NCBI GenBank assembly: GCA_002794785.1
Contig: NBBA01000015.1
Location: 868,001 to 932,000, forward strand
DNA from: Coniferiporia sulphurascens
Taxonomy: Eukaryota; Basidiomycota; Agaricomycetes; Hymenochaetales; Hymenochaetaceae
Length of the DNA stretch: 64,000 nucleotides
Direction of reading: 5' to 3'
Shown here: piece by piece, positions 33,383 to 57,505 of the stretch
Layout of the letters: every line of letters begins with the position of its first letter
Position numbering within the stretch: the stretch's first letter is position 1
The notes under the pieces: generated by a model
The model's database searches: none
Told to the model about the DNA's origin: nothing
What the model saw: the letters and a program-made list of their open reading frames with translations, nothing else
Translations under genes and position numbers: made by a program

Positions 33383-33783
33383 TCAGATACGTCTATGGCT
33401 GGCGCGTTCGCAGGGAGGGTCCGTCTAGAGAGAACATACGAGCGCGTGTGGCGCGTGTTAGCTCCTTCACTGCTGGACCGCAGCCTAATATTTATACCGC
33501 TAGCACTCACTATGCATTCCTCCCCTCTGCTTATGCAACTTGCGCAGGCTTCGTCATCTCTGTTTCGCTCGCACTGGTCACCATCAGTATGTAATTCTCA
33601 ACAATTAAAAGATGGATAAAACTAGTACCCTGCAATGCTTTTTCATGCAACTCCTGCATGCGCGTGGGCGCTTCGCCATGCCTCCCATACTCCCGATCAT
33701 ACACTGATCTATGTGGCCTCTGAACACTAGTCATTCTTCCGGAGTAAGAGTAAATAAGACATGCTTTGGACGTACATGTACAT
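33383..33783 (-). CDS. Mini Zn(2)Cys(6) zinc-cluster protein, copy 1 (67 aa)
   Basis: Four exons: 33783-33776 (8 nt), 33719-33629, 33573-33511 and 33424-33383. The spliced frame is open for 67 codons. It is nearly all zinc cluster: ACRSCMKKHCR, then (after a phase-0 intron) CERNRDDEACASCISRGEEC, giving the spacing C-x2-C-x6-C-x8-C-x2-C-x6-C. This is the fungal GAL4-type binuclear cluster, which binds two zinc ions and usually CGG half-sites in DNA. No fungal_trans or other domain follows; the last exon starts TDPPCERASHRRI and stops. A basic segment AKRPRA precedes the cluster. A TATA box lies about 95 nt upstream. Exon 1 choice is weaker than in the other copies because there are two overlapping ATGs; translation could also begin at the internal Met of MIGSMGG. 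Confidence 0.6.
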
Positions 33784-33874
33784 GTCAGACTTGGTCGATA
33801 ACCTTCAACAGATACCCTGAGTGGTGGTGGGCGGATGTTAAAGGGGGTTGATGTTCTGGTGTTAGGACTCTGCG

Positions 33875-33880
33875 TTTATA
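33875..33880 (-). promoter_or_regulatory. TATA box of mini zinc-cluster copy 1
   Basis: AATATAAACGC on the minus strand, 92-97 nt before the inferred start codon. Equivalent boxes precede copies 2-4. Confidence 0.6.
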
Positions 33881-35168
33881 TTACTCCGCCGATGCACCGA
33901 TGTATCCACACAACCTATGCAGTAAATCCCGACATCTTTAGGCGCCGGAGGGTTCTATGCATCAAGCTTATTATCGGCGGCCATTTCTGCGGATAGCGCG
34001 GCCGACAGAAAAACAACTCAGCTCAACATTCGCCGAATCTCTCAAACTGTGAGAACGGGGAGTCAGTTGACACATGCATGTACCTCACGATGCATATAAC
34101 ACAGGTCTTCGGAACAACTATACTTATTATGAGCCTCAATTATTTTGTACATAGAATGTTGCTTGTTGCTTCGCTGCGGGTATCACAAAAACGCAAGTTT
34201 ATCCGCTTATTTCCGCACAATTTCGGCGGTTAAAGGTCAACAAACGAGTAGCCGAGAGTACTAGTGTTTGAGACAGTATTAGCACGCGTGCATAATACTG
34301 TAGATAGCATTCAAAGCAACGCTAGATTTCACTAGTCATACATCAGACCAAATTTGCTCAGGTGCATCAGATGCACGTAGATGGGTAAATGCCCGGATAC
34401 AGACGAACCTATCAAGCAAGGCTATTAGGTTCCGGTCTGCGTCTTCGAAATTGAACACTTTCCCGGCGGTTAGCCGGCCCGGCACTCCCGAAGCCACAAT
34501 AGTTACTTAATATCCACACCCACAACGACATACACGAGCCGGGACTTCGTGTCGCAGTCGAACTCGCCGAAGATCGAAATCTTCATGTTTCCTCGGGCCT
34601 GATCGCTAATACGGGAAAATACTGGAGTTCCACAATTCACGGCGCTTGCGAATGCACTCTAGTGCCAACTTGTGTAATCGTATAACTAGTAGATAATTCA
34701 AGTTACGCAAGATAACTGGAGTGCTCATACAACAAGACAAATACTACGGAAAATTAAGTAACCCCGAACGGCCGACCCTCGAACTCAGCGTCGAGCTCAG
34801 AATTCAACAGAAAAGACGGTAACTGTTCGATAATGTACCTGAGTCGAATGTCGTCGTGGAGTTGTGATTTTGTTTTGTGAACAGTCGGTCACAGTATGTA
34901 TCTGTCCAGCCCTGGGCCGTTCTGCAACTTAGTCGGAACCACTCTAGTCGCACCACGCCATTTCGAAATCAGTCATATATACAATCTCATAACTTAGGCA
35001 CAAATTAAATACTATTACGCTTGCTGTTTACGTCCGAGTCCCTCCCCTCGCGACTCGCGACTCGTGACCCTCCAAGCAACCCCGAAATCGTGCTCATCGA
35101 GAGGTTTAAACAGCATCCCGCACACTACTTTACAAAAGGTGCATAAATATGACCGCCCTCGACGCCCG
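33881..35168. other. Intergenic with unassigned coding-like pieces
   Basis: Two protein-like segments on the minus strand stand out. One, near 34,840-34,765, reads RYIIEQLPSFLLNSELDAEF. The other, near 34,590-34,510, reads KISIFGEFDCDTKSRLVYVV and ends at a stop. I recognise no family and could not connect them into a gene. Confidence 0.3.
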
Positions 35169-35557
35169 CTAACCTCTCAAGTTGGCGCGGGGGCCAGGAG
35201 GGATGGTCTGGATGGAACAGACGAATGGGTATTTGTAAGCTCTCTTGTTGTTGGGTTAGGTTGAACATAGTGCTGCCAATACTCACTATGCATTGTTGTC
35301 CTTTTTCTCTGCATGCCTTACAGGTCTCGTCGACTCTGGCGCGGTCACACTAGCCATCGTTAGGACTTAAATTCGTGAAACTTGAAAGAAAAAAGACATA
35401 CCTTGCTGTGTTTATTGTGACAATACTGGCATGCGGGCGGGCGCCTCGCGTCGCCCTTCATACTCTCGATCATAGTCTCGGTCATGTTAATAAAGCCCCT
35501 AAGCACAAGTCAGTCCTTCGACGTAAGAGAAGAAGACGTGACTTAGACGTACGGCAT
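35169..35557 (-). CDS. Mini Zn(2)Cys(6) zinc-cluster protein, copy 2 (67 aa)
   Basis: Four exons: 35557-35553 (5 nt, ATGCC), 35498-35402, 35349-35287 and 35207-35169; 67 aa. The cluster reads ACQYCHNKHSK then CDRARVDETCKACREKGQQC, again C-x2-C-x6-C-x8-C-x2-C-x6-C. The tail begins TIPPGPRANLRG and ends in TAG. Donor GTATGT and acceptors CTTAG/GCTAG/TCCAG are good. The third to fifth residues after the first cysteine pair have lost the basic character seen in other copies (HNKHSK), so DNA binding may differ. It is strongly diverged from copies 3 and 4 in DNA but keeps all six cysteines, both intron positions around the cluster, and the short tail. Confidence 0.7.
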
Positions 35558-35635
35558 GGTGGATATGGTCTGTAAGCTTCAATAGATATGTTGGGTGGTT
35601 GTGTGAATGTCGAAAGGTGTTGACTTTGGCGAGCC

Positions 35636-35641
35636 TTTATA
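35636..35641 (-). promoter_or_regulatory. TATA box of mini zinc-cluster copy 2
   Basis: GGTATAAAGGC on the minus strand, 79-84 nt before the ATG. The DNA just upstream (35,660-35,700) shares the AAGGCnnTTCC block seen upstream of copies 3 and 4. Confidence 0.6.
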
Positions 35642-35689
35642 CCAGCAGCTGCGGGATCAAGGAAAGACAAGGCAGTTCCTCTCAGGGGA

Positions 35690-37661
35690 GTCTCAAGACA
35701 AGAAGTCTTTGCATCGGCGCGTTTGCATTCGCCAAGTAATGGCGAGCGCACCTCAATTCCCTTCGTTTAATCCAGGTGGCACAGCGCTTGGCGAAGCATC
35801 AAAAGATACAGAGAATACCGTTTGAGTAACAAGTATCGAAAGAACGGAGGAAGTTTTGTCAAACAAGGGCCCGGGAGAGACATGTTTCACACGAAAGTAT
35901 AGCACATTGAGGATTAGCACTACGGGCAGATCGGAACGAACAAGTGAGAGAAAACCCGGAGGAACGAGACGATACGGGGGGAGGCTGCCAGTGTAAAAAA
36001 TCTATTCGCTAGCACTGAAGTTGATGTGTTGTTTTCCAAGGTTCATTCCAGACCTAAACGGTCAGCGGCGGTGCGGCGGCTACGGAAGGGTTTATGGCCT
36101 TAAGTGGAAGTTACCTGCTTACTAGACGGTTATAATCGGTTCCCGGACGGGCAGTCGTCAAAGAGGAATGCTAGCATCTGTTTGTATAATAGCCTTCAGA
36201 GATTTCGGCTCGCAATACGCTGATATTATCAGAACAACTAGGCGCGCCGAATTCATCCAAGGAAGAGTCAGAGTCGGAAACAGCCACCGTCAATTGCATG
36301 GAAGAGCTTCGTTTTAGCCTCAGTGTATATACCGCTGCGCATAACAGAGTTATGTATGCAGTTCCCAGATCAACGAGTTGGAGGTGATACCACAACCATT
36401 AGATAGGAAGTGCCCTTAGCTTTTTGGGACACATCCGAGAGAAATCAACGAGCAAACCACCACCAGGAATGTGATAAGACCCAGCCTCCGCGCACAGATG
36501 GGATCCAAAAAGGCTTGTCTTACAGGCACATAAGCACCACAACAATGAATAGAGAACGAAAACTTCAATTCTCTTACTTAATTCGGTCGATCTTGTCCAG
36601 AAAATGGCTCATCACCGCCCCGTCAAAATGGACTGTATGTCGGTAGAGCCGATCGAGGGGAATCCGTGTGCAGTGCGAGCTGGTGCATCCTATGAGAGCT
36701 CAGGGGAAGCACTGTCTTTTGGGATCTAAGCACCGGACGATAAGTGTGGCTTTCAAGTTCAGCGGCCCGGGCCCGGGCTCGGGGAACTCGTAACTCGAGC
36801 GGAAATCACGTGTGCGACAGGTGGCCATGACATTTCTTGTTTGATTTGGTCCCGCCACGTTGCTCTTCGACTCGGATGTCCCCGCGCTCGCGGGGCCGGT
36901 GGGCGCAGCGATGTCTTACCACAATACGCACTAGGAGGCGAGAAGAAATAGCTGTGGATGTCCACACATGCACGCAGGTTGCGAGCAACGTACAAGGCAC
37001 GAACGACCAACCAGCGCCCAAATCGTCACCGGATGCAAATCAACCCGGTACTACTAGTATGTAGAACATGGTCTCCGGAAACAAACAAGCAAAATAAGTC
37101 CTGTGTTGCATATAGAAGAACAAGGGTAATCGCATCCTAGGCCTCCTTGAACTAAGCCGAAAGATCTGCGCCAAACATTTTTGACGAACTCGCACAACCA
37201 GTGCATTCTCAGTCTGAAGGGTTGTGATCCTGGCCACCAATCCACTACCACTCAGCGTCCGGCTTCAAGCCTTGACGAAAAATCTTGATTATCTCATGGG
37301 CTTATCAAAAATCAGGAATCTTCTGCACTGCCTAGACCACGCGGGTTCGATCATTGGCGAATAGGAACCTTTAGATTGAAGCGAATCTAGCAAAATAGTC
37401 GTTGAGATCGGATCGACTTTCATAAACATACCCATATGCAGCTGTCCGGCTTACTGTATGCTTGGTGTGGACTCATAAACGCCGCTTCGTTCGCACTTTG
37501 ATTATCTCATAATACAGCATTTTTTGTTACTTTATGACGCCATCGACTAGTATACTGTACACATATCGGAGCCTGTCCAATAGGGTCGATAACATCCCTT
37601 TTTTTGAAAGACCCGTGGACCTCACTAATTTTGAAATCTAAGACGACTTTCTAAACACGTC
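35690..37661. other. Stretch without a recognised gene
   Basis: AT-richer DNA with only short frames. Nothing recognised between the upstream region of zinc-cluster copy 2 and the membrane-protein fragment at 37.7 kb. Confidence 0.4.
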
Positions 37662-37973
37662 TTGGTGGCTAACACGATAATTACGGCCCCGTGGCTTCAG
37701 ATCGTCACGTCCCTTGGGACGATCGGCCTGGCAAGAACATGGAAAAGCGATTTTGTCAGTCCCTTCATTACTGCATTACCGGGTAAAAGCACTCACGTTA
37801 CATTTTTCTTCATTGGGCACGCATTCAATACGTGGTCCTCCGGTATCGCCTTGGACATGCTAGTGACCGTTAGCATGAACTTGTTAGCATTCCGTAGCTC
37901 ATTATGCGACAATGTATTCTTCCCACCTTGCCTCCAGTACATCTTGATGGACTCGAAAGGGTTCGAACGTTAG
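37662..37973 (+). pseudogene. Membrane-protein fragment, DUF6534-like
   Basis: The piece FNTWSSGIALDMLVTVSM, preceded by VTSLGTIGLARTW and followed after about 20 residues by YILMDSKGFER, resembles the transmembrane core of basidiomycete DUF6534-type multi-pass proteins (W-x6-A-x-D-x-L-I/V-T-x-S-M, then S-K-x-G-F). Only this core is seen. The expected intron between the SMNLL and DSKGF pieces does not splice in frame, and no upstream exons were found, so I read it as a relic. Family assignment is tentative. Confidence 0.35.
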
Positions 37974-38459
37974 TCTCTCTAAGCATACGTCAGTCGACCG
38001 ATTGCGCAAGGACAAGAGATGCGGTCCGGACGTTCACGTACTCGGACATGGTGCAGAAGATCTGAGGAATCCAATAGGTGAACTTAATAGTAGTGCTTGG
38101 AACGTAGAGAAGCAATGGCAGCAGTTTTGACTTAAATACTCATACAGGTGACTCATTCGCGCTTTCGGATATGTCGCCTCCTTTTGAGAGATTTTTAAGG
38201 CAATAGCCTTCGAGCTCTACGCGTCATCCACAAATAAGAAGCGAAAGAAAAGTATTTGTCCTCCACACAGCAAGAGTCAAAAGGCCAGAAGACCGTCTTT
38301 TATCTTTTTCTTTGCGAAAAGGAGACAGCTCTTGCGCAAACGTGTGGGATGTCGAGAGTCACATGGGGACATATCAAAGTGAACGGACCAGAAGTAATCG
38401 GACGAGACCGTGCAAGGGGGAGGAAACCGACCATAGCTCGCTTTACATTTCGTCGTGCC

Positions 38460-38770
38460 TACCAGACGCCGGTGTGGTCCTCCGAGGACGATTCTGACTC
38501 TAAAAACGCCGGGAACGAAAGACTTAGCGCGCTCATCGCCTCGAGAAGCGGGCCTTGTGAGTCCGCCGTACAGTCGGCGACAACCATCCTCCGAGTCAGT
38601 GGTCGTAAGAAATGACGATTGGTTAAGCAGCCGCCTTTATCTCGCCTAATGGAGGCGTTTGTCCTTGGTAGGTGACGGCTTCGATGTATATTTATATATT
38701 CGCAGTTGCGGGCGAAGCCGTCGAGGGCACGCAAGGCGGTTCCTCTGAAGAGACTTTCAGGCCGAGAAAT
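38460..38770 (-). other. Zinc-cluster-type upstream region without the cluster
   Basis: A TATATAAATATA box (about 38,685-38,697, minus) and the flanking GCGAAGCCGTCG...CAAGGCGGTTCCTCT block resemble the upstream DNA of zinc-cluster copies 2-4. Downstream there is no Cys cluster. An ATG at 38,587 opens a 42-codon acidic frame (ALSLSFPAFLESESSSEDHT) that ends at TGG-TAG. This may be a gene that acquired the same promoter, or a degraded family member. Confidence 0.3.
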
Positions 38771-38774
38771 TCGC

Positions 38775-39796
38775 CTCGATTCCTATCTCGGAGTCAAGGC
38801 ATCATGTCTCACGTAGAAGGCGGAAGTTTTTTTCGTTTCGAATAGCAAGACTAGCAAGGACTGTAACATTAGATGAGTTTCTTTCCTAAGCGAGGAAACG
38901 ACTCGTTAGAGAAGCACGTCGAGCGTCAAAACATTGGCAGCGAAGATACCGAAGGCGATTCAAAAAAAACCGAGATGACGACTGACACGGTCCTGGGGGA
39001 GGGGGGCAGAAGTCGGCATCGTTCTCCAAGAATCGTCTCGCCGTCGCCAGAAGGCTTACCGTGCTTATTGTACCAAACGATAGGCGCCTGCGAGTCCATA
39101 TGGTGGGGCATGGTCATAAAATCAATTGCCACGGGAATGAACATATTAGCCTGATCTTGCAATCACCTTCAGAGACCAGGCCGGGGTAGTGTGTTGAAAG
39201 AGTTGGAAATGAAAACACGTCGAGAAGGAACAGCCGGGACGGAAGCAGCCGCTGTTGGTCCTCAAAAGGTAAGTGACGCACACGTTACTCTCTGGGAAAG
39301 TGAGCGGCGAAGATTATATCCACCTCGAACGAAACCAGAGGTCAGAAAGTGTGCAATAAGCCTCCTGCCTAACGCGCGCCTGCACGGTTAATGCGAGGAG
39401 AGCCAAGTTCCAGGGTTTGCTTCGTGTATCCGAAGCCACGTGATTGCAAAAGCCTGCGCTCATATAATTTCGTATTTTGGCAAGCAGAAGCCTTTTATCC
39501 AGTAGCATATTTTGACAGTTGTCGCGGAACCTGGGCGGTATCGTGTGCGAGTTTTTCTAACTTTTTCCCGCGACTCTGTGCCTGCGAGCGCACACGATCT
39601 CATAATCCGAGGAATATATCGCTTCATAACATACGCGTCTACCAACTGTTACTACAGTATATCTGTCCTCTAATAAGCCTCAAGTTAAAAGTTGAAAGCA
39701 AATTCCTAAACGTCCTCAGATATCCAACAAGACAAGCAACCCCCACGATCCGAGAATTAACGGTTTACGGGAAACGCTCAAGGGCAACCACCCGAG
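38775..39796. other. Stretch without a recognised gene
   Basis: Contains a roughly 75-bp segment (39,220-39,295) that recurs near 49,845-49,920, and from about 39,690 the 3' flank shared with zinc-cluster copy 4. Confidence 0.4.
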
Positions 39797-40184
39797 TCAC
39801 TGGCGGTGCATTCCGCGTGGGGCCGGAGGGTCCGTCTGGTAAGAATATACGTACGCGTATGAGATATCTCTCTTCTAGTCAGGCAAGAACGTAACGCTAA
39901 CACTCACTATGCATTCCTGTCCTTTCGCTATGCAAGCTCTGCAGGCTACGTCAACTCTTTCTCGGTCACACTGGTTATCATTTGAGTAATTCTCGAAATT
40001 CGATAGCAAAAAAAAAGCATTACCTTGCAGCGCTGCTTCTTACAGTGCCTGCATGCGGACAGACGACCTGCTTTACCACCCATACTCTCGATCGTATGAG
40101 CGAATACGTTTTGAAAGCTTCATTTAGCACGGGTCAATTCGTTGACGCAAACGAAGAAACAACTTGGACATACGCGTCGGACAT
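39797..40184 (-). CDS. Mini Zn(2)Cys(6) zinc-cluster protein, copy 3 (68 aa)
   Basis: Four exons: 40184-40174 (11 nt), 40117-40024, 39970-39908 and 39835-39797; 68 aa. The cluster reads SACRHCKKQRCK then CDRERVDVACRACIAKGQEC, the classic C-x2-C-x6-C-x8-C-x2-C-x6-C with a basic first loop. An intron lies in phase 0 before the third cysteine and another in phase 0 after ECI. The last exon is TDPPAPRGMHRQ and TGA. The N-terminus MSDAFQNVFAHTIESMGGKA is unrelated to known domains. The protein has no linker, coiled coil or fungal_trans region, so if it works it is a stand-alone cluster, for example a DNA-binding competitor or a partner of another regulator (inference). It is nearly identical in the cluster to copy 4 and shares about 2 kb of flanking repeat with it. 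Confidence 0.7.
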
Positions 40185-40291
40185 AGAGAAGACCTGAAAG
40201 ATTTAGGTATGCCAAGTGGAGGTTTTGCGAACGTAGTTCTCCGTTTGCAGGAATGCAGGAATGACGTAGAAAGGCGATGACTAGGAGCTGC

Positions 40292-40298
40292 ATTTATA
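40292..40298 (-). promoter_or_regulatory. TATA box of mini zinc-cluster copy 3
   Basis: GGGTATAAATGCAG on the minus strand, 108-114 nt before the ATG. The leader carries about 55 nt absent from copy 4. Confidence 0.65.
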
Positions 40299-40433
40299 CC
40301 CTGTAAGCATAGGCGAAACCGTCGGGGGCCTTTCAAGGCCTACAAGGAGCTCGCCTTCCCAAGTAAAGGGCGAGAGAAATGCCCCCGTCCTCCTCGCCGA
40401 AAAGGGTGCCGCTCGGCGAAAAGCCTTTAGGAG

Positions 40434-40590
40434 CAGAGACGCCGCCCGCGCGGAGACACCGTCTGCACAGAAACGCCGTCCGCGCAGAGCCGCCGCCCGC
40501 ACATAGTCGCACAGAACCGCCGTACGCGCGGGGTCACACAGAGCCGCCGTACGCGCAGAGTCGCACAGAGACGCTGTGCGTGCAGAGAAA
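40434..40590. repeat. GC-rich minisatellite (17- and 27-nt units)
   Basis: Seven units of GAGMCGCCGTCCGCGCA type, some extended by GAGTCGCACA to 27 nt. The matching place in repeat copy B has one unit and in copy C none, so it expanded in copy A. Confidence 0.8.
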
Positions 40591-41077
40591 GTCAGCGGCC
40601 CTCTAGCCATTATCTGCGCAATTCCTTGACGAGAAGAAGCTTCTTCCAAAATCCACACGGCGACAGACTGCAGTCTACAATTTGAGAGAAGTCGGGTGAG
40701 GCCACTCAGGAAGAAGAAGGCCAGCCATGAGTAGATTTCAGATGTCCTCTCCATCTACTCGAAGTCGGCGTGGTCCGCCAGGCATTCTCCCGGGGCCGAA
40801 AGCGCCGCAGGAGGAAATGGCTCAGCCAACGCGCGCATTGGCTCAACCGGCGGAAGCTAAGAATTCGCCGTGTGCCGACTGTAATGAACATCCGAACCAG
40901 CAATCGTTTGCAATACCAGCTCTGCCGCACTCTCGCCTCCAGACCTTTCAGGCGGTAGCACGCCGAAATTTGCATAGATGAATTAAGCTCGCCGCTCCAC
41001 CGTCCAAGAGTCGGGGCAGAGGGGATCAACTAGAAAAGGCTATGCGATTTGAGGCAATGTAAAGTCCGATTCTCGCA

Positions 41078-41690
41078 AGTACGTGTCTCCCAAATTCGCA
41101 ACTGAAACAGCTTAGCCGACGCACATTGCGAATGATTTGCCTTGGTGCAGGAGATTATGATTTAGTCCGCCAGTCAACGTATCAACATTTTCGGGGAGGC
41201 TTATGCCATGGAGATGCTTTGATACCGTTTCGACGTCTGCAAGCTTCGGTCCCGAGCAACAGATAGCTCCAGAAAACACGTATTAGGCTTAGACCGTATT
41301 GAGCCGCTAATCATTGCCATTTACGCCAGCACCATTTTACAGGAGAGTTTTGCCAACCTGGCAATTGCCATGGCAAAAATGGCAACGGCAAAACTGGCGA
41401 CTTTTGCCCACAACACTAGTACTACCAGTACGTGTCTCCCAAGTTCGCAACTGAGGAAACGGCTTCGCCGATGCTTTATACGGAGAAACTGCCCAAGTAC
41501 AGTGGATATTAATTTAATTCGCCAGTCGACATATTGATTTTTTGGGGGAGGCTCGAGTTCGCGAGGTCCTTTGAAACATAACTCACACGGACCTATAAGA
41601 TTCTGCAAACTTCGGTCCCAAATGACAGGGCGAGTGGACTCCAGGAAACACGAGGTGTTAAGCTCTACCTGCATTGAGCCGTTAATCCTA
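41078..41690. repeat. Internal duplication within repeat copy A
   Basis: The block from AGTACGTGTCTCCCAAATTCG to CATTGAGCCGCTAATC (41,078-41,310) recurs at 41,429-41,690, separated by a short stretch of repeated GGCAA words. Copies B and C carry it once. Confidence 0.7.
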
Positions 41691-42320
41691 CAGGTGACCA
41701 CTGATACCATGTGTTCGACATGAGATTGACCGTCGGTGGATGCGTCGTTCATAAACGGGACTCGGTGCCAGCGACCCTGCGTGACTGCTGACAGTGCCCG
41801 GCGTAGTCGTGATAGCCGGAGTTGAAGCGATAACGACTCCCTTTTGACCGACGACATTAGTTCCTCCTTTCCCAGCCGCAATCGTGGGAACTGCAGCCCG
41901 ACGACAAGCACTATTCGGTCGTTTGTAATTGCCAGGAGTTGCAACTTCGGTTGCTGCAGTGATTCATTGCGGAACCATCGCGCGCATGGAGCCCAGAGAC
42001 ATCGATTCCTAGAAGTGCAAGAAGCAACCGGCCAGAACAACGTAGGTTCATATAGTGCACAACAGAGCTTATGCTCAGAGTCGTCGCCATGACGCACGTG
42101 TATGTCACGTGCCATTTAAGGCTCCTCGGAGCAGCCAGTCCGATCTCGTCGATTTCAAGTTGATTCCGTCACTACCGACCAGTTCTACCCATATTGTCAA
42201 TATATTATATTTTCGCCCTCGTAAAATGAGTAGTAGCACACTTAACGAAGAAATATATCTACGTAAACGGAGTATTCCTTGAGGAAAGTCAGGTATACAA
42301 CATCAGTCCTGCTGGTGGTC

Positions 42321-43507
42321 TGGACTACAGTCGAAAGCACTTAAAGGCATCATCTCCGCCGGGCCCAGAATTTTTCTTAGTTTGAGCTCAGATTAAAAAT
42401 TTAAACAGACAAGTAGCTAAATCCTACAATACCTCCCATTTGTGGGATTTTTCTAAAAATAGATTTTTTGTGTCAAATTTTTTGGAAAATAAAATAAAAT
42501 AACTACGTCTACAAACAAGTTTAAGCCTCCACAGATACCAAATTTTGAAACAATCGGCAGCTGGACAGCCTAGGATAGGCTTTCCATGAATAAAACTGCA
42601 GAACCTACCCAACACCTATCTACCCATGGGCGTTGAGAACACTTTTCAAGAGGGTACTAGACCCATGAAAATAAAATAAAATAAAGTAAAATATTTACAG
42701 ACTCAGGAGTGTTGCATCTGATAAGATACAAAAACAAGCTGGACACATCCTTGCACATTGAGAGCCAGTGTAGGCGAGTGCAAGGCCGACATTGGCAGCA
42801 AGCGCAGCACTAGCTGCATGTTAACGGCGTGTCCATTTGTGGACTGCATACAAACATATGTCCGTTTATAAATGTTTACGTATTTACATATGTCTATATA
42901 TGGGTGTTTACGTATTATATATATTCACTTTAAATTAATAAAAATTTATGTGTCAAATTTTTCCTAGAGATTCAGCTTATTTCAGAATCCCATAGTTCCG
43001 GCCAACAAGGTCAGTAGGCACACCTGTTTTCTGCATAATGCACTAAGTTTCAGTGAATTCTAATGTACAAACAAATACTAGATGAGTTTACAAAAAATCA
43101 GCCGTTTCGGGAGATGCCGAGGTGACACCTTTAAGCGCTTCCGACTGTAGACTTGCGCTTAGCGAAAATGTCTATGCTTAAATATGTGTTTGGAGGACAG
43201 CAAAAAGATGTGACGTAGGTAATGTAAACCGTTCGACGGTCGGACACGATTGGCACACACAGGCGGTCCATGTACTAATAGGCTAACCAAGTCTTAACCG
43301 TACAGTATGGTAGATCCGGGGTGGGAGGTCAGAACAGCAGTACCTAGAAGGAAATCTATCATTAAACATTTAGACAGTCAAGAGAGATACAAATCCGAAA
43401 ATTCAAACTAATGTCTTAAACATCCTCGAATATCAAACCAGACAACCACAATCCGAAGGCCCGCGGATTAGCGGTTTACGGGAAACGCTCGAGAGAAACC
43501 ACCCTAG
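42321..43507. other. AT-rich stretch without a recognised gene
   Basis: Contains AAAATAAAATAAAAT tracts (42,480-42,500 and 42,665-42,690) and a roughly 30-nt TGTCAAATTTTT segment repeated at 42,470 and 42,950. No exon chain. Confidence 0.5.
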
Positions 43508-43891
43508 TCAGCGGTGGTGCATTTTGCGTGGTGCCGGAGGGTCAGTCTGGAAAGAACATACGTACGTGTGTGAGACATCTCTCCTCTCTCGGGCAAGAAC
43601 GTAACGCTAGCACTCACTATGCATTCCTGTCCTTTCGCTATGCAAGCTCTGCAGGCTACGTCAACTCTCTCTCGGTCACACTAGTTATCATTTGAGAGTA
43701 ATTCTCGAAATGCGATAGCAAAAAAAAACAACCTTGCAGCGCTGTTTCTTACAGTTCCTGCATGCGGACGGTCGACTCGCTTTGCCATTCATACTTCCAA
43801 TCATCGAGGAGGTCGTGTTTATGAAGCTTATTAGCACGGGTCAGTTCTTTGACGCAAACGGAGAAGCATTTTGGACGTACCGGTCAGCCAT
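43508..43891 (-). CDS. Mini Zn(2)Cys(6) zinc-cluster protein, copy 4 (68 aa)
   Basis: Four exons: 43891-43881 (11 nt), 43826-43733, 43680-43618 and 43546-43508; 68 aa, the same length as copy 3. Cluster: SACRNCKKQRCK then CDRERVDVACRACIAKGQEC. Tail TDPPAPRKMHHR then TGA. The N-terminus MADRFINTTSSMIGSMNGKA differs from copy 3 at about half its positions while the cluster is almost unchanged, as expected if the cluster is under constraint. Its intron 2 donor is GTTGTT rather than GTAATG, the weakest splice site in the family, so this copy may splice poorly. A TATA box lies 53-59 nt upstream of the ATG. Confidence 0.65.
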
Positions 43892-43943
43892 GTAAAAAGT
43901 CTGAAGGGTTGTAGGAATGTAGAAAGGTGATGGCACAACGTGC

Positions 43944-43950
43944 ATTTATA
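43944..43950 (-). promoter_or_regulatory. TATA box of mini zinc-cluster copy 4
   Basis: AGTATAAATGCACG on the minus strand, 53-59 nt before the ATG, with the same TATAAATGCA core as copy 3. Confidence 0.65.
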
Positions 43951-45520
43951 CTGTGTGCTGTGAACATAGGCGAAACCATCGGGGAGAGACAAGGCTATTC
44001 CCTTCGGGAGCCTTTCAAAGCTCACAAGGAGCGCGCCTCCGCAAGTGAAGAGCGAGAGAAACGCCCTCGTCCTCTTCGCCGGGTAGGGTGCCGCTCGGCG
44101 AAAAGCCTTAAGGCGCAAAGACACACCGTCCGCGCAGCAAAATTCAGCGGCCCTCTAGCCATTGTCCGCACCCTTCTTTGACAAGAGGAAGCGGCTTGCG
44201 CAAGGCCGCAGCAGTCAAAGATCATTTGAGAGCAAGTCGGGTGAGGCCGCTCAGGAAGAAGGGGGCCAGCCACGAGTGGATTCCGAATGTCCTCTCCATC
44301 TACCCGAAGTCGGCGTGACCCGCCGGGGCTTCTTCCGGGGCCGAAAGAGCCGTCGGAGGAAGTGGCACGGCCAACGAGGACCGTAGCGCGCGCATTGCCT
44401 CAAGCGGTAGAAGCCTGATAATTCGCCGTGTACCGTCCGTAATGAACATCCGAAACCAGCAGCCGTCTGCAGTGCTAACTTTGCCGCGCTCTCGCCTTCA
44501 GAGGTTTCAGGCGGCAGCACGCCGAAATTTGCAGAGATGAATTTAACGTGCCGCTCGCTGTCCAAGAGAGCCGGGGCTGAGGTGATCAGCTAAAAATAGC
44601 TCCGCGGTTTGGGGTAAAATAAAATCCAACTGTCGCCAGTACGTGTCTCCCAGATTAGCAACTGAAACGGTTTCGCCGGCGTCTGTTGGCGAGAATCTGA
44701 CTAAGTGCACTGGATTATAATTTCAGTACCACAGAGATGCTTTTAAACGTAACTCACACGGACCTATAAGATGTTTTGATTCCGTTTCGATTTCTGTAAG
44801 CTTCGGTTCCGAACGACAGCAAATGAACTCCAGAAAACACGAGGTGACAGGCTCTTCCTGCATTGAGCCGGTAATCCTATAAACGACCATTGAGATCATG
44901 CATTCTAAATGTTCCCCGCCTCTTTGTTCCTCTCGCTCTTCGAGGGGCGAGTGCATTGATCGCCGGCGGAGGCACCGTTCATAAATAAGACTTAATGCCG
45001 ACGACCATGTATGAATTTCTGACGGTACCTGACATAGACGTGTCATGATAGATACGGTATAATCGAAGTTGAGGTGATAACGGTTCCCTGTCGACGGCTT
45101 TAGCTCGTCTTTTCCTGGCTATCAGTCGAAGCAGCTTCGGCGACAAGCACCATTCGGTCGTCCGTAATTGCTACGTTGACCTTCGGCTGCTCAGCGAGTC
45201 ATTGCGGGGTCAATAAACCGATGCACATGGAGCCTAGGGACATCGGTTCCTAGAAAGAGATAATGCGCACAAAGCAACCAACCAGGCCGACGCAAGTTCA
45301 TTTTGAATTCTCCTCGTCGACTTCGTGAGAACAAGACTCGGGTCGGGGGACGCACGTGCAGATCACGTGCCATTGCGCTACACGGAATCGAATTGTCACG
45401 CGGCCAATGTCTTTTTCCTTCCCCAAAGCGAGTAGGTACAGTAGCATGCTTGAAAAGAAATATCGCTGGATAAAATTGAACTTACCTTGAGGAATCCTCA
45501 GGTATATCAATCTTGCCGGA
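43951..45520. repeat. Large dispersed repeat, copy B
   Basis: Collinear with copies A and C. It holds the GTCGGGTGAGGCC, GAAGTCGGCGTG, ACGCCGAAATTTGCA, AGTACGTGTCTCCCA and CATTGAGCCG blocks, and a CACGTG pair at 45,353 and 45,364. It forms the upstream flank of zinc-cluster copy 4. Confidence 0.7.
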
Positions 45521-47597: not shown

Positions 47598-47604
47598 TAT
47601 AAAG
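47598..47604 (+). promoter_or_regulatory. TATA box of the DUF6533-type gene
   Basis: GGTGTATAAAGGCG, 50-56 nt before the ATG at 47,654. Confidence 0.55.
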
Positions 47605-47653
47605 GCGTGTCTTCAGCGTCGCAATGAAAGCTCTATAACGCTTTTGCACAGAA

Positions 47654-49301: not shown

Positions 49302-50048
49302 CGTAGCGGCACAGGTCCCAGGGAGTCTGAAAGGACGAGAAGTAGTTGACACCCGCCCCAGCAACGAAAAACACATATTTGATTACTATCACAAAGACCC
49401 TCTCTCATATAACAAATAGTTACATTAATCGTAAAGTCGAAATCGTCGACAACCGCATATTGTTAAAGCCTGTCATCTTTCTCCGCCTTCTATTGTGGGA
49501 TATACAGTATATCTACGGAACTCTGTCTTAAGGTCCGATTCGTCCGCTCTCCGCCAGTCCCTTGGGGATGACAGATACCCGACGGATCCATCTCTCCCAT
49601 AGTAGCAAATGCTCCAATGCACATCTTCTGTGCTACAAACTACATTTAAGCTCAAAATATGTCTCTGATCACCTTGTACTTATTCTGCGGAGTTATTCGA
49701 CATCATTACAAGGTTTAATGTACAGACGTTGCGTGATGTTGTAGTTATCAAGAGGATGTCTGATGGAATAAGACCACATTTTGGATAACGACAATCGAAG
49801 ACAACTTGCGGGTGTTCACATGGCAGTTGACTCTCAGGCGTCGGGTGAGAAGGAGCAGCCGAGACGGAGGCGGTCGCTGTTGTTTAACATAGGGTAAGTG
49901 GCATCCACCTTACTCGCTCATGATACATGTAATTTGATCAGAGGGCCGCCGAGTATCTTTCCGTCGTAGAGTTGGCTTCGGTATTTTCGGATAGCATGGT
50001 CAAAAAGCCCAATCTCACAACCATACGGATGTTGGGAGTGGGCAGTGA
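49302..50048. other. Stretch without a recognised gene
   Basis: Downstream of the DUF6533-type gene. Includes the 49,845-49,920 segment that recurs at 39,220-39,295, with a GGGTAAGTG or AGGTAAGTG splice-donor-like word in both. Confidence 0.4.
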
Positions 50049-51460
50049 AGCAAAAGTCAGCGGCCCTCTGGCCATTATCTGCACCATTCCTTGACGAGAA
50101 GAAGCGGCTTGCGCAAGGCCGCAGCAGTAAAAAATCCACACGGCGGCAGACTACAGTCTTAAAATTTGAGAGCAAGTCGGGTGAGGCCACTCAGGAAGAT
50201 GAGGGCCATCCATGACTAGATTTCAGGTGACCTCTTCATCGACACGAGGTCGGCGTAGTCCGCCAGGGATTCTCCCGAGGCCGAAAGTCCCGCCGGAGGG
50301 AGTGGCGGCCAACAAGGAGTGTAGTGCGCGCATTGCCTCAAACGGCGGAAGTCTAAGAATTCGCCGTGTGCCGGCCGTAATAAACGCCGGGGCCAGCAGT
50401 CATATCTACCGCGCACTCGCCTCCAGAGGTTTCGGGCGGTAGCACGCCGAAATTTGCAGAGATGAATTAAACGCGCCGCTCCGCCGTCCAAGAGAGTCGG
50501 GGCCGAGGGAACCAACTAAAAATAGCTCCGTGATTTGAGGCAAAATAAAGTCCAACCCTCGCCAGTGCGTGTCTCTTGGATTAGCAACTTAAACGGCTTC
50601 GCCGACGTCTGTTGGCGAGAATCTGACTAGGTGCACTGGATTATAATTTCTGTACCACGGAGGTGCTTTCAAACGTGACTCACACGGAACCATAAGATGT
50701 TTCGACTCCGTTTTGATTTCTGTAAGCTTCGGTTCCGAACGACGGAGCGAGTGAACTCCAGGAAACACGAGGTGTTAGGCTCTTACTGCATTGAGCCGAT
50801 AATCCAATAAACAACTATTGAGATAATGCATTCGACATGTTCCTTGCCTCTTTGTTACTCTCGCTTTTCGAAGAGCGAGTGGATTGAACGCCGGCGGAGG
50901 CATCCGTTCATAATCAGGACTTGGCGCCGGCGACCATGTGTGATTGTTGACGGTACCTGGCGTAGACGTGTCACGATAGACATGGCAGAGTCGAAGTCGA
51001 GGTGATAACGGCTCCCGGTCGACAGTATTAGTTCATCTTTTCCCGGCCGTCGGTCGGAGGAGCTGCAGTTCGACGACAACCACCATGAGGTTGTCCGGTG
51101 TTGCGTTGACTTTCGGCTGTTCCGTAACCCATTGCGGAATCATCAAGCAGGTCCACATGGAGCCCAGAGACACATCGCTTTTCAGAGAGATAATGCACAT
51201 GAAGCAATCGGCCAGGCCAACACAAGTGCATATGGGGCACAAGAGAGCCTGAGCTTATCGTGGATTCCTCGTTGCCTTCGTGAGAGCGAGATTCGGGTCG
51301 AGGACGTACGTGCAGATCACGTGCCACTGTGAGCGCCTCGGGTCGAACGTGTTTGATCGGAGCCTCATTCTCAAAAAATAAAGTAGAAGCACGTCTGAAA
51401 AAGAAAGATAGCTGCGTAAACGGAATCCACCCTGCGGAAAACGCTCTCTTCGGGTTCATC
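50049..51460. repeat. Large dispersed repeat, copy C, without zinc-cluster gene
   Basis: Collinear with copies A and B from AAAGTCAGCGGCCCTCTGGCC to the CACGTG region at 51,318. At its left edge the homology stops before the position where copies A and B have the TATA box and zinc-cluster gene, and unrelated sequence follows. Confidence 0.7.
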
Positions 51461-53368
51461 GGTACTGCGGTCAAAACTGAAACTTTGAACCGCTCAGGTT
51501 TTTTTTTGCCGTATTCCTCTGTTTACAAGACCGTAGCTAGTGGTGTCTTGATCCTCAGGGTTAGGGCACAAAGAGTACTAGTGGCGCTAATTCTGTGGGA
51601 CTCGGTGTCGACGACTGCGATACGGTGTCTGGCTTGTAGGGCCTGGAGGCTCGAATACAGAAGCCAACTTTGCCTGTCACTACTAGGGTAGGCGACTTAT
51701 AAGCGTCGGATGTAGATTCAAGTGGTCGTTGATACTAGGACGTTGGAAGCAGCATGTTTGCATGCAGGAGTACTTATGACACTGCATGTATCCTGTGCTG
51801 CTACTGTAGGATTCTCTCGCACAATCTCCATGATTGGTGCGAGCTGGGGCTGTGCGAGCGGCTAAGGATTTTTTGCATCAGTGACTCCCTTTTTTCGATC
51901 ATTCAAGTTGAGAGATACATACCAAGTTCGAGGTGGTTGGGCGCCAGGGACCACGCGTGTCTTCCAACAACGCTGGACGTAGGCTCGGACCGGAGACGCA
52001 TTTCTTCCAAGCTATTTTTGTTTGAAGTTTTTTTTCCTTCTAGCGTGGTTCGGGTTGAAATATCTGTTGAAATTCGAGCTCGATGCCGAGATCGGCCGTC
52101 GGAGTTTGATTTTCTTTCCGTAGAATTTTCACTGCTTGTATGCGCGCTCGGTTTCCCGAGCCTGATTAAATGATATACTTAAACAAATTCGCTAGCGCCG
52201 CGAATTACTGATTTCCAACAAGATCTGCAGTACGACGATAATAGCAATTGGTTAGCTTCTTTCATTTGATAATCTTCAGAGGCTGTAATAGAAGGGAAGA
52301 GAGAAGCACGAAAGAGGTTCTCATAAAGTTATGTGCAGCGTGTAGTTACGCGTTTCCAGCGATCGTAAATTTTTCATCGAAGTCTGAACCTGAAGATGGA
52401 GATAAGAATATATGCAGTTCGGAATAAAAATGGAGGACTGAGGTGAAAATGAAAATTTCCACTGACTATATACGCCGTCCGAGAATAACTATGTTACCAA
52501 TTACGTTACTAACTGCCTCAAGTGGCACAGCCGGTAGTGGCATGACGACTCTCCGGCACACACGGACGTTCGCTAGGGCACACGGGCTCACCAACTTCGC
52601 AGCACGTTGGTCGTTGCCAATGCAGTGAGCAAGGGAGCGGAGAATACTCAAACTCAAACTCAGACGAGTCACGACCGGGCGGCTCGGACGCACGTGTGAG
52701 GTCACGTGAGGGATTGTAGGCGCCCGGAGGCGCTAAGTTGCGTTAGCAAAAGGCGTCACATCACGCGAGATATGCGAAAGATCTGCAGGGGATGCGTGCA
52801 TTTTTGATTTGATTCCGTCACAACGGCTTAGTACTTACTTTTTCGCCACAGATAGATGAAATGGTTATAGAACCCCGCGCACGAAGAAAGCGCGGGAGAC
52901 GTCGACATCGACATCGACAGTACAAGGCCCGAGGAGCGGCTTCTGCTGTTTATCCGCGCCCACGGCTAACGCAAATTCTGCCACACAGATAAGCCAGAAT
53001 ATTTAATAATATCAATAACAGCCGTATATCGCGCTATGTGCGTGTATGTGTGTGTATTCCGATTCGCGATTGCGCACCCTATCTCGCCCTCTATCTGTCC
53101 TGCCTGCAACAGCCCTATCTCGCCCTCGCCCCCTCCTTCATCTTCGACTCCAACCTCGACCTCCCACCCACCCGGTTGTGTCTGCGGTCCCGCCCCGCCC
53201 TGCCGTGTGTACACGACCGACATTCGGCCCCCGTCTTGGATAGCCTTTACGCGACCGCGACCGTCGATCACATCCACGCGGTCCCTGGCCTCCCCGTATC
53301 TTTATCACACACACACCCTCCCCGCGGCCAGCTCGTCCTCTTCCCGCGACCACCTCCCTCCCGACGCT
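51461..53368. other. Stretch without a recognised gene
   Basis: AT-rich at 51.5-52.4 kb, then GC-rich. A CGCACGTGTGAGGTCACGTGA element (52,690-52,710) and a microsatellite CTCAAACTCAAACTCAG (52,648-52,664) are seen. The right end is the promoter and leader of the following gene. Confidence 0.5.
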
Positions 53369-55152
53369 ATGCCAAGCAGGACGTTCGACGCTTGGCTTGC
53401 CTATTCCGCAGACTTTTCCACAAAACGCGATGTTTCTGGGAAATACGGAGGTACGTCCCCGTCGCTCTCTATCCCCGCCTGACGCTGATCCGTAACTCGT
53501 TCTTCCGTTCCAATCCCTGATCCTAAACTGCCTAACCCCCTCACAGTTGACTTCCGTGTGCCCGAACCCTGCAGTGCTCACCGCCGTACCCTACGCCTCC
53601 TCGCCGAGGTGAAGGAGCGCGTCCCGCGCATGGTCCGCGTCAACGGCGAGCAGTTCGACTACGTGAGTACTCACCCAGCCTTTCACATGTAAATTACACT
53701 GACTCTTTGACTCCGATACCACAGCTCGAGAATGCCGGGGCGGGCCCAGTGCCGTTCGCCCCCACCCAGCCGCTCCCCGCATACCCATACCAGCACCCGC
53801 ACACCTACGCAGCCAGCAGCGGCACCGACTCCGAAACCGAGCGTTCCGCCACTCCGCGCGCCGCCTCCGAGCTCGAGCTCGAACTCGAAGACCGGGACCA
53901 CCTCCAGGGCGCCGACGCCGATCTCGATCTCGATTTGGACTTCGATACGCGCGGTTTCGGCTTCAAGCTCGATGACTGGCTCCAGCCGCAGCTTAGCGGG
54001 CGCGCGCCGCCATCCGCGTCTCCGTCGTTTCAGTCGGCTGCAGCGATCGGAGGGGCACCGGGATCGGGGCCATCGTCGTTCTCTGGGCCCGCAAGCGCCC
54101 CAGACCCAAGCCTCGCTCCGCTCCCCGCCTCGCCGCTTTCCCCCGCCTTTGCTTCCGCGCCTACGTCCGCCAGCGCCCCCGGGCCCACTTACCTCACGCA
54201 CAGGGCACCCGCGCCGCTCCCCTTTGCGCTCCCCGGACCCGCCCTCGGAACACCGTTCGCTGCACCTCCAACCCCAAGCCAGAGCCAAAGTCAAAATCAA
54301 AGTCAGGCACAGGCGCGCATGCGGTCGCCCTCCGAGCCTATCTTACCCGCGAACGCCCACAATCACCCACGTGCACGGCGTAGGAGCACCGCTGCAGCCG
54401 CCGCGAGTGCAGGCCCAGCCGCGGCTCCGCGCACACCGCGCCGTTCTGAGCCGTCGCATCCCCGCACGAGCGCGAGTGCGGGCTCGTACGCGACAGGGGC
54501 ATATGGATACCGCTATCCCGCGCACCCGCCTTACCCGCCCATCTCCGCCCGCACCAATATCCAGACCAACGCCAACGCTAGCGCTAGCACAGGCGCGAAC
54601 CCCAATACTGGCCAAAACGCGAATTCGAATCCCAACAACGTGGGCTCGGGTTCAGGACCCGCCGCTTCCTCCTCCTCTGCGTCGTCGTCGTCTGCATCGT
54701 CGTCAGGTTCGAGTGCCGGTGTGCCTGCCGCACTGCCTTCGGCCGATATTTACGGCGGCTCGCGCCTCGATTGGACGCAGCCGTGGGGCGGCGTCGGCGT
54801 CGGCGGTATTGGAGGGCTCAACACGGGCACGGTAGATACCATGGGCGGGTGGGGTCGGCCCTCGGATCCACTCCCGCTTGCTCTCCTTCAGATGTCAACC
54901 TCGACTCAGAACGCACACGCACGTGTTAGCCATCCGCATCCCCAACAGCAGCAGCAACAGCGCGCGTATGCCCCCGACCCTGACCCTGTGCGTGGGCACG
55001 GCCCCTCGCTGACGCTGCACCTCCCGGCGCAGGCAGGGTACTATGGCGGGATTGGGGATGGGGGAGATGGAATGGCGTACGTACATGGGAAGCAGAGACA
55101 GGCGAGTGCGCCGTATTGGCGGGCGACGCCGTCTGACCTGATGGATCAATAA
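53369..55152 (+). CDS. Low-complexity protein of unknown function (541 aa)
   Basis: Three exons: 53369-53450, 53547-53662 and 53725-55152, joined in phases 1 and 0. I do not recognise a family. The first 65 residues look ordered (FDAWLAYSADFSTKRDVSGK ... CSAHRRTLRLLAEVKERVPR, then VNGEQFDY). The rest is disordered: Pro/Ala/Ser-rich, with an Asp/Leu stretch ADADLDLDLDFD, a Ser/Gln run (SQSQSQNQSQAQA), a long Ser/Ala run near residue 390, Asn/Gly-rich patches and QQQQQQ near residue 480. GC content is high, as in the other ordinary genes. It is convergent with the ankyrin gene at 55535. Such layout fits a transcription co-factor or scaffold, but nothing proves it. The start is chosen because the exon 1 frame and donor GTACGT join cleanly to VDFRVPEP. 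Confidence 0.7.
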
Positions 55153-55180
55153 CCTTGTGTAAGGGGCTTTGGTTTCTTGT

Positions 55181-55186
55181 AATAAA
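55181..55186 (+). terminator. Poly(A) signal
   Basis: AATAAA 28 nt after the stop codon of the 541-aa protein. Confidence 0.5.
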
Positions 55187-55534
55187 AACGGGCCTTGTGA
55201 GTTGGGTTGAGGCGAGCGAACGACGGACGAAGGCGACGATGACGATGCACGTTTTATTTCCCTCCTGATTCTTGTTCTTTCTTTTCTATTCTCTCTCTGC
55301 ATGTAGGACGCAAGACGCAAGACTTTCATGACGCTCTATTCATTCCATGCCATACCACCGCTATCGGTCCTTGTACATGTAGAAAGTACACTGCCAATAT
55401 ACACTTGCACGTAGATGTTAAAACAATCACCTTCACGGTTTCTCTACTTGAAAAGTCAGCAGGAAAGAAGGGAACGCAGACGGCGCACAGCGACGCACCT
55501 ATTTTTTTCTTTTTGCGAGACGACGAAAGCAGGG

Positions 55535-56369
55535 TCATGACACCTTCGCATCACCGTCCCGCGAGATGCTCATCCGCGCAACCTGCCCCTCCGCATCCTC
55601 GATCTCCACCTCGATCGCCTGCGCGCCGACATCCACCTCATCGTCTCCCTCGTCTCCTCCCTCCGCTTCCGCCTCGGCCTCTGCCTCGCCTTCAGTCGCA
55701 CTCGGCGCCGCATCGATATTCATCACGCTCACAAGCCAGCGGGCCCCCTCGTCCCACCCCGCTCGCTCCGCCTCACCAAACGGCGTGCGCCCCGCGGCGC
55801 ACCGCACGTCGACGAGCGCAGCGCCCGGTCCGCCCCGGTGCTCAACCAGCGCGCGCACTGTACCGAGCTGTGCGTTCACTGCTGCCCAGTGCAGCGGCGT
55901 CGACCCCGCGCCGTTTGCCTCTCCCAGTAGCGCACCCGGTACGCCCGCACCGAGTATGTAGGCGAGCACGTCTGAAGCGTCAGCGTTCGTTTTTCACTCC
56001 GGTTTGAATTTTAATTGGGGAGGGAGGGGGTGTCTTCTCCCCCTCCTCTCTTCCCTTCTCCGTCTCATTCAAAAGACAAGGGAGGAGAAAGCAGGAGGGA
56101 GAGAAAGGATGGGAAAAGGAGAACCGCGCACCTTCGTGCCCGTTCCCGCACGTCATATGCAGTACGGTATTGCCGTTATCATCGCGCACAGCCGCTAGCG
56201 CATCAATTCCGTACTTCTCAACAAATTGCCGCACATCGTCGAGGTCGCCGTAGCGGCATGCGAGCAGAACGTCTTCTTGCTCCTCCACCGTCGGCGCCGC
56301 TGCTGAGGGTGTTGTCGCTGGTGGTGTTACTGTCGATGCTTCGGATTTTAGCGGTAGTACGTCGGCCAT
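55535..56369 (-). CDS. YAR1: Ankyrin-repeat protein, YAR1-like (224 aa)
   Basis: Two exons: 56369-56132 and 55971-55535, joined in phase 1, encode 224 aa. An N-terminal low-complexity lead is followed by EEQEDVLLACRYGDLDDVRQ, NGNTVLHMTCGNGHE, then VLAYILGA..., GSTPLHWAAVNAQLGTVRAL and GRTPFGEAERAGWDEGARWL, that is, about three ankyrin repeats with the TPLH and NGH signatures. The C-terminal third is very acidic (a run of EGEAEAEAEAE then GGDEGDDEVD). Length, repeat order and acidic tail match yeast Yar1, the dedicated chaperone that keeps ribosomal protein Rps3 soluble on its way into the 40S subunit; that role is inferred. The intron (160 nt) is longer than most here. The gene is convergent with the 541-aa protein, 382 bp apart. 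Nothing is broken. Confidence 0.8.
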
Positions 56370-57104
56370 GAGAATAGGATCACACAGATCTGGTTTCTAG
56401 ATAAGTAGGAGAGGGAGAGATGAGGGCGGGCCAAAATTTCGGAGCGGGCCAAATGCACCCGAACTCGGCGAAGGGATTTGCGTGATTTTTGTGATGCTTT
56501 ATATTACCGGATTAGGAAACGCCAGTACCCCTGGTTCTATTAACCAGAATATTGATACTATCGTATGAACCCTATTCAAGGCTAATTTTTGTTTTGGAAG
56601 TGACTCTGTAAAAGGGGTCATAAAATAGTAGCAGAAATGGATGGAAAATGAAGAGCGTGAGTTGAGATGAATAGTTTTCGGAAATATTTAACTGAGGAGC
56701 TGCATAGTTCAAGTGTCCTATCATGTCAATTCAGTATATCTGGGCTCTGCAGCATGGGCTTTAGCGCCCCGGGCTCGTCCTATTCGAACTTGGAAATGTA
56801 TTACCCAGAACCTTAGAGTGCTAGTAACTGCGCATCAATTAAATGGTCAGAATGATGTAGTCAAGCTCCTGTTATCACCCCACTTTCTCGCATACCCCAA
56901 AGATATCCGCATGATGGCACCCTCAGTTTAGTTTGAACCACGGCGCTACTATTTTCTCCGGTGTAAAACGTGACCTTGTTGACGCCAAATGAGTAGACTT
57001 CTTTGATACTATTCGGCTCATAAGTAAATATTAGCTGGAGCCACTGCCTCCTGACCTTCAATTCGACCACGTTGTCTATTCATCAGTCTTAGGTATCCTG
57101 CACA
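56370..57104. other. Intergenic, no gene seen
   Basis: Upstream of both the ankyrin gene and zinc-cluster copy 5. A GTAAATATTAG TATA-like word lies near 57,024, about 80 nt before the zinc-cluster ATG. Confidence 0.5.
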
Positions 57105-57505
57105 ATGTCAGCCTTGTACGTTCAATAATTTATCACCCTTTGCATCTGAGAGCTGAAACGTTCTTGGAAGCCTTGAAGATAGAAACCCTTTTAGCCCAGA
57201 GAGCTATGAGGCCATGAGAGGGACAGCGAAGCGGCTACCCGCTTGCATTTACTGCGCGAAAGCGCGCTGTAGGGTGCCTGCTTCATCTTCACCTTATGAC
57301 TGTGCACTGACGGACAATATAGTGTGTCCGAAACACTATCGACGAGCCATGCCTTGCGTGCATAAGCAGGGGCAGACAGTGCATTGTGAGTGGTAATACC
57401 CACCCTGGCCTGAGGATAGTCGAACTAATGTCAGGATTCGACTAGACTGACTCTCCAGCCAAACGCGCTTTTCACAAGCTTTTCACAAGCAGCGAACTCC
57501 CCTGA
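57105..57505 (+). CDS. Mini Zn(2)Cys(6) zinc-cluster protein, copy 5 (70 aa)
   Basis: Four exons on the plus strand: 57105-57115 (11 nt, ending at donor GTACGTTC as in copies 2 and 4), 57195-57273, 57323-57385 and 57446-57505; 70 aa. Cluster: PACIYCAKARCR then CVRNTIDEPCLACISRGRQC, with the same C-x2-C-x6-C-x8-C-x2-C-x6-C spacing. The phase-0 introns sit at exactly the same two places, and the last exon again begins TDSP (tail AKRAFHKLFTSSELP, longer than in other copies). It lies 13 kb from the nearest other member, in opposite orientation and without the large flanking repeat. Conserved structure with highly diverged sequence argues for an old, maintained family rather than recent junk duplication. 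Confidence 0.65.

Follow-up and report, generated by a model that had tools for sequence, protein, structure and literature searches.

A constrained family of mini Zn2Cys6 genes in Coniferiporia sulphurascens with a possible microProtein-like function

Introduction

One of the largest classes of fungal regulators is that of the Zn2Cys6 proteins, in whose canonical form the zinc cluster is coupled to a large effector part. Can such a cluster be the whole product of a gene? The question is raised by a stretch of 64,000 nucleotides of the Coniferiporia sulphurascens genome (assembly GCA_002794785.1), hereafter the window, in which a first-pass annotation had proposed five loci splicing to proteins of 67-70 amino acids (aa) that consist of little more than one zinc cluster. 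These were taken as stand-alone mini genes rather than as five chance truncations of ordinary regulators. A constrained family of this kind, in which nothing but cluster and linker is kept, would provide a natural experiment on the abilities of a lone zinc cluster. The comparisons described here lend good support to the view that these loci belong to a constrained gene family.

The window corresponds to bases 868001-932000 of contig C15 (1,055,042 bases), in a genome of 39.3 Mb in 31 contigs; the right end of C15 is a TTAGGG array, which was taken as a telomere. All gene models, splice sites and products were predicted from the genome sequence, and all family members compared come from this one genome.

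Results

The five window loci were rebuilt from the sequence at the positions originally proposed, and in each of them the exons join to an open frame. Four lie on the minus strand: w33 (33383..33783; exons 33776-33783, 33629-33719, 33511-33573 and 33383-33424; 67 aa), w35 (35169..35557; exons 35553-35557, 35402-35498, 35287-35349 and 35169-35207; 67 aa), w40 (39797..40184; exons 40174-40184, 40024-40117, 39908-39970 and 39797-39835; 68 aa) and w44 (43508..43891; exons 43881-43891, 43733-43826, 43618-43680 and 43508-43546; 68 aa). The fifth, w57, lies on the plus strand (57105..57505; exons 57105-57115, 57171-57273, 57323-57385 and 57446-57505). The size range first given thus holds for the four minus-strand genes, while the product of w57 has 78 aa, not 70, as its exon 2 is better started at 57171 (acceptor GGAAG); this start is preferred because the GAAG acceptor and the F-x-D-x-N lead match the sister gene at C15:935 kb. 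The weak GTTGTT donor that had been noted among these genes is indeed present and belongs to intron 2 of w44.

The family proved to be larger than the five members initially counted. In translated searches, the genome yielded seven further four-exon models outside the window, six on C15 (k791, k796, k802, k816, k832 and k935, at about 791, 796, 802, 816, 832 and 935 kb) and one on C2 (60 kb), so that the genome holds 12 four-exon models, plus a distant candidate and a truncated copy. The queries were seven of the 12 members plus the distant candidate, and only the best candidates were scored, which makes 12 a lower bound. Five weak genome matches (L058, L064, L067, L081, L083) were dismissed as members upon inspection by eye. 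An exon-by-exon genome search with the Pfam family Zn_clus (PF00172) yielded 19 matches, none of them a mini gene; the nine of these that were inspected (L001-L008 and one at C15:738 kb) read as ordinary clusters.

The splice structure is conserved. Exon 1 has 5-23 nt, exon 2 91-104 nt, exon 3 63 nt in all 12 models and exon 4 18-63 nt. The length of exon 2 is 1 mod 3 in 11 of the 12 models (91-103 nt), the exception being k791 (104 nt), which can be modelled only if a non-consensus first donor is accepted; given the exon length and the weak donor, k791 is probably frameshifted. As modelled, introns 2 and 3 are in phase 0 throughout, in agreement with the earlier description, to which it has to be added that intron 1 is in phase 2 in 11 of 12 models. 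All 36 introns end with AG, and all but one (GC in k802) start with GT. Exon borders were picked by homology and frame, especially the acceptors of w57 and k816, which limits the weight of the phases as independent evidence. Two other signals are independent of the choice of borders: CTRAY branch-like sites occur in 18 of the 36 introns (5.7 expected from single-base shuffles), and TATAWA is present at -130 to -45 in seven of the 12 models (0.39 expected, likewise from single-base shuffles). In the window, the TATA motif is located at -97 (w33), -84 (w35), -114 (w40) and -59 (w44), and none was found upstream of w57. Furthermore, an exon-3 signature, AG-TGY-N24-TGY-N6-TGY-N18-TGY-N3-GTGRG, which was composed after the five window genes had been seen, matches five times in the window and never in 100 dinucleotide-preserving shuffles.

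The predicted proteins have 64-81 aa, 6-9 cysteines and a pI of 8.7-9.7 (12/12 models). All of them match the pattern C-x2-C-x6-C-x8-C-x2-C-x6-C, which fits the Zn_clus spacing (Cx2Cx6Cx5-16Cx2Cx6-8C). The cluster cysteines are kept in 72 of 72 cases, the pairwise protein identity having a median of only ~40% (0.30 to 0.76, 11 members); besides the six cysteines, three residues never vary among the 12: Ala before Cys1, Arg at Cys3+2 and Thr at Cys6+2. Supports in the gene tree lie between 49 and 99. Apart from Zn_clus, no Pfam family comes near its cut-off for the mini proteins, which like microProteins are small and single-domain; 10 of 11 members match it at E<=1, and w35 (25.6 bits) is the sole window protein above the cut-off of 21 bits (w57 was scored in its earlier 70-aa form). 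A profile of 11 members compared with the PDB sequences gave 14 matches at E<=1, nine of them to Zn2Cys6 proteins and five to others. The best eight of these are all Zn2Cys6 regulators, and five of the last six are not. The closest solved structure is LEU3 (2er8, E 0.0028), and the list also includes Pho7 (0.088), LAC9 (0.093), PUT3 (0.15) and GAL4 (0.47). Proteins with 6-9 cysteines in 64-81 aa, encoded by multicopy genes on a telomere arm, could also be zinc or metal buffers, RNA binders or secreted cysteine-rich peptides that merely resemble a zinc cluster. We regard this as improbable, as the Zn2Cys6 spacing and the linker Arg (see below) are kept, the top eight profile matches are Zn2Cys6 regulators, and none of the 12 proteins begins with a strongly hydrophobic leader (over nine residues, the mean hydropathy within the first 35 residues does not exceed 1.5).

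The ratio of nonsynonymous to synonymous change (dN/dS, omega) between members had been named beforehand as a possible refuter, should it be near 1. Codon models were applied to 11 members (k791 was excluded), testing omega against 1. With F3X4 and a coarse grid of omega and kappa, omega was 0.3-0.4 overall, 0.2 in the cluster, 0.4-0.5 in the lead and 0.3 in the tail, and twice the log-likelihood difference from omega = 1 (2dlnL) amounted to 75.0 for the whole protein, 57.1 for the cluster, 15.7 for the lead and 7.8 for the tail. The corresponding values with F1X4 were lower (58.8, 40.6, 11.1 and 6.5). Neutrality is thus rejected for cluster, lead and tail alike, and the constraint on the tail (2dlnL 6.5-7.8) implies that even this short segment behaves as coding; dS estimated according to NG86 is saturated in many pairs. 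Neutral relics or pseudogene fragments are rejected, since omega = 1 fails for the whole protein under both models. Decay of the family, with functionless cluster fragments being copied around the subtelomeric arm, would be in line with two copies that look broken, with a duplicated block that has no gene beside it and with the telomere array that terminates the contig. However, omega is below 1 in each part, every cluster cysteine has been kept in spite of the low identity, exon-2 length differences are in frame, and TATA and branch sites are retained; such decay therefore appears quite unlikely.

Conceivably, the mini genes could also be the initial exons of long, ordinary Zn2Cys6 regulators for which the remaining exons had been overlooked. 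Mis-predicted introns are common in this class (according to excerpts of PMC10141177, most records with only a middle homology domain, MHD, merely had the cluster exon missed), and the mini cluster is itself split by introns. Yet the stop codon follows 6-21 codons after Cys6 in all 12 models, and the tail before it is constrained. The regulatory domain Fungal_trans was found within 4 kb downstream of none of the 12 mini genes, in a search confined to this one effector domain, whereas it was found there for 10 of the 19 ordinary Zn_clus matches of the genome (Fisher p 0.004); the latter figure means that the search was capable of finding Fungal_trans if present. Of 56 genome-wide Fungal_trans matches (E<=1), a single one lies on C15, at 409 kb; the nearest four-exon model is ~381 kb away from it and the distant candidate 317 kb. 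When ~1.3 kb of downstream sequence of the 12 members was compared, blastn matches were obtained in two close pairs only and ended 110-155 nt past the stop. tblastn gave one weak 38-aa match of k832 to w44 (E 0.004), and in global alignments k832 and k802 are 56% identical at 100-250 nt past the stop, the other five pairs having 33-47% there; the 3' similarity of k832 and k802 may thus extend slightly beyond the blastn limit. Both observations would suit overlooked exons, but taken together the data make that explanation highly improbable. Read-through past the fourth-exon stop into a longer protein, the other refuter named at the outset, is consequently without sequence support, and the selection and downstream tests together favour stand-alone mini genes over five chance truncations. 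A product of read-through of intron 3 was discarded as well: the tails would have 7-60 residues, and by eye nothing is common to them beyond the first residues and the close sisters.

The position of the stop codon can be related to the structure of Gal4. In the profile alignment, Gal4 Arg46, which touches DNA phosphates according to the available text of PMC5559640, aligns at Cys6+8. The mini proteins have Arg here in nine cases, Lys in two, and no residue in one (k796). Gal4 Arg51 (Cys6+13) is placed in the same text at the start of the dimerisation helix, and 10 of the 12 mini proteins end at Cys6+14 or earlier, i.e., at or before the approximate start of this helix. Conservation of the Arg46 position in exon 4, combined with a stop near the beginning of the helix, favours a monomeric DNA-contacting unit, and such a unit in turn favours competition for sites over partnering by means of a dimer helix.

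In w40/w44 the synonymous divergence of the exon-2 lead greatly exceeds the divergence of the introns (KS 1.20 vs KN 0.13; Fisher 1e-5), and the same applies to w57/k935 (KS 1.14 vs KN 0.26; Fisher 0.001). As both site classes are raised in these two close pairs, exchange of exon-2 stretches among paralogues is suggested more than positive selection alone. The other seven of the nine pairs tested lacked a significant excess in the lead, and in four of these the cluster had excess synonymous change (uncorrected p < 0.05). The truncated copy (L019 2291-2811, C15:1048 kb), which lies ~6.7 kb from the contig end and stops at the close of exon 2, provides an example of exchange among paralogues, being w44-like through intron 1 and w40-like thereafter. 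It is broken by a 262-bp tandem repeat starting with TTAGGG units, and this interrupted mini gene resembles an internal telomere-repair scar.

The behaviour of the lead bears on the main alternative function, in which the lead serves to recruit another protein, either a co-regulator or a full-size regulator, and the mini proteins are adaptors or accessory activators rather than competitors. A lead that is itself constrained, and that has been replaced faster than the introns in the two closest pairs, is what would be expected if the lead sets specificity. On the other hand, no such excess is seen in seven of nine pairs, Pfam reported no interaction or activation domain for the mini proteins, and the Arg46 position points to contact with DNA, although this would be compatible with a partner. 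We consider the adaptor function rather unlikely.

The remaining copy outside the four-exon set, the distant candidate L044 (C15:727 kb, 66 aa), has an intron just before Cys3 and an intron 3 that is displaced by three codons; its exon 1 differs from that of the others in that a tiny first exon was not seen. The sequence upstream of w40 contains, in pieces, a duplicated block (40584..41722, -; repeats D2, D3, D5, D7 and D8) that is non-coding by eye. According to the repeat comparison, the same block is present upstream of w44 (44136..44974, -) and, with no mini gene alongside, at 50049..50922 (-). A fourth copy of this ~1-kb block runs into the telomeric fragment at C15:1047-1048 kb. The open reading frames (ORFs) 41324-42115 and 44726-45118, which overlap the w40 and w44 blocks, respectively, had no Pfam match over cut-off. 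The possibility that the genes are cargo of a mobile element was rejected, every reported match of the duplicated upstream block being on C15. Ordinary genes recognised by Pfam, encoding a class-V aminotransferase, an FAD-binding oxidoreductase and an ankyrin protein, are interspersed between the mini genes, and a further ten ORFs were tested from 38 to 59 kb, none of them with a Pfam match over cut-off. The mini cluster is adjoined by a gene for a G-protein alpha subunit (PF00503, E 2.5e-111; 30542-31765 (-)). The ORF 62527-63003 (+) looks by eye like a Copia-type gag, with no Pfam match at E<=0.01.

Discussion

Based on the sequence features described above, we propose that the mini genes encode nuclear, monomeric, single-domain Zn2Cys6 proteins that take up DNA sites without being activators and thereby blunt full-size activators; for this proposal as a whole, we see about as much chance of its being right as wrong. 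In each protein, a variable lead would precede the single binuclear zinc cluster, and a short linker tail would follow it. The protein would very probably fold as a zinc cluster, would enter the nucleus and would probably contact DNA, at CGG-like sites; that it does so as a monomer, as reported for AlcR, seems fairly probable. Lacking an activation domain or MHD, it would mainly occupy its sites and act as a DNA-binding microProtein towards full-size Zn2Cys6 activators, though whether competition is the net outcome appears evenly balanced. Duplication, together with recombination exchanging the exon-2 lead, would then give rise to a diversified set.

Several observations weigh against this proposal. 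Four of the five window proteins score below the Pfam cut-off (15.7-20.5 bits vs 21), and the E-values to solved zinc clusters are weak. Two proteins, w57 and k791, extend to Cys6+20 and +21, i.e., past the point where the others end, while k796 ends before the Arg46 position. The position of the base-contacting Lys18 of Gal4 is occupied by Lys in none of the 12 (Arg in eight, His in three, Cys in one); Pho7, however, has Asn here (excerpts of PMC5559640), so Lys18 is not family-defining. Without a dimer helix, the affinity of a monomer may be low. Finally, the lead outpaces the introns in only two of nine pairs, k791 and the telomeric copy look broken, and k832 and k802 share the 3' similarity mentioned above.

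It is also conceivable, though somewhat less likely than not, that the family is a fungal microProtein system that makes use of the end of a transcription factor which reads DNA and not of its dimerisation end. About a dozen minimal Zn2Cys6 readers, mostly located on a single telomere arm and with leads swapped by recombination, would then supply rapidly renewable site blockers or adaptors for the fungus' own zinc-cluster regulators. A specific larger parent gene was not found among the 19 Zn_clus matches of the genome, 10 of which have Fungal_trans nearby. Searches of a protein database gave no homologue of the mini proteins, its content of spliced fungal proteins not being controlled for. 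No cluster-only family is named in the accessible portions of the papers on fungal regulator repertoires PMC5415576, PMC3998117, PMC5604158, PMC10141177 and PMC2447501, and no fungal zinc-cluster microProtein was found in the partial texts of the literature searched, which left most subscription journals outside. These results hint that a cluster-only Zn2Cys6 family had not been described before. Routine annotation could easily miss such genes, given their division into four short exons and the low scores of most window proteins, which stay below the Pfam cut-off.

With the Gal4/Leu3-type Zn2Cys6 factors (Zn_clus, PF00172), the mini proteins share the cysteine spacing, the basic x6 block and, in nine of 12 cases, the linker Arg at Cys6+8. 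They differ in that 64-81 aa are the whole protein, 10 of the 12 end too early to accommodate the dimerisation helix, Fungal_trans was not found within 4 kb downstream, and the Lys18 position is never Lys. The clusters of AlcR and Pho7 are parts of larger regulators, whereas the mini proteins are whole proteins; the likeness to these two consists in a cluster that may be functional without dimerisation and, for Pho7, in the absence of Lys18. AlcR is cited in PMC5559640, as far as its available text goes, as a monomeric binder of a single CGG site, and Pho7 is raised there as a possible one. Members of the CeGAL family combine Zn2C6 with MHD (excerpts of PMC10141177); the zinc cluster is common to both groups, and the mini proteins are without the MHD.

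The plant MINI ZINC FINGER proteins, PAR1 and CPC are microProteins that are likewise small, have a single domain and share this domain with larger transcription factors (excerpts of PMC5381583 and PMC6003976). In the text of PMC5381583 on microProteins, fungi, yeast and Saccharomyces are mentioned zero times. The mini Zn2Cys6 proteins would be candidates for a fungal counterpart of plant and animal microProteins, with one difference: the microProteins described so far are said to interfere with protein complexes, whereas the mini proteins instead appear to retain the part of the transcription factor that contacts DNA.

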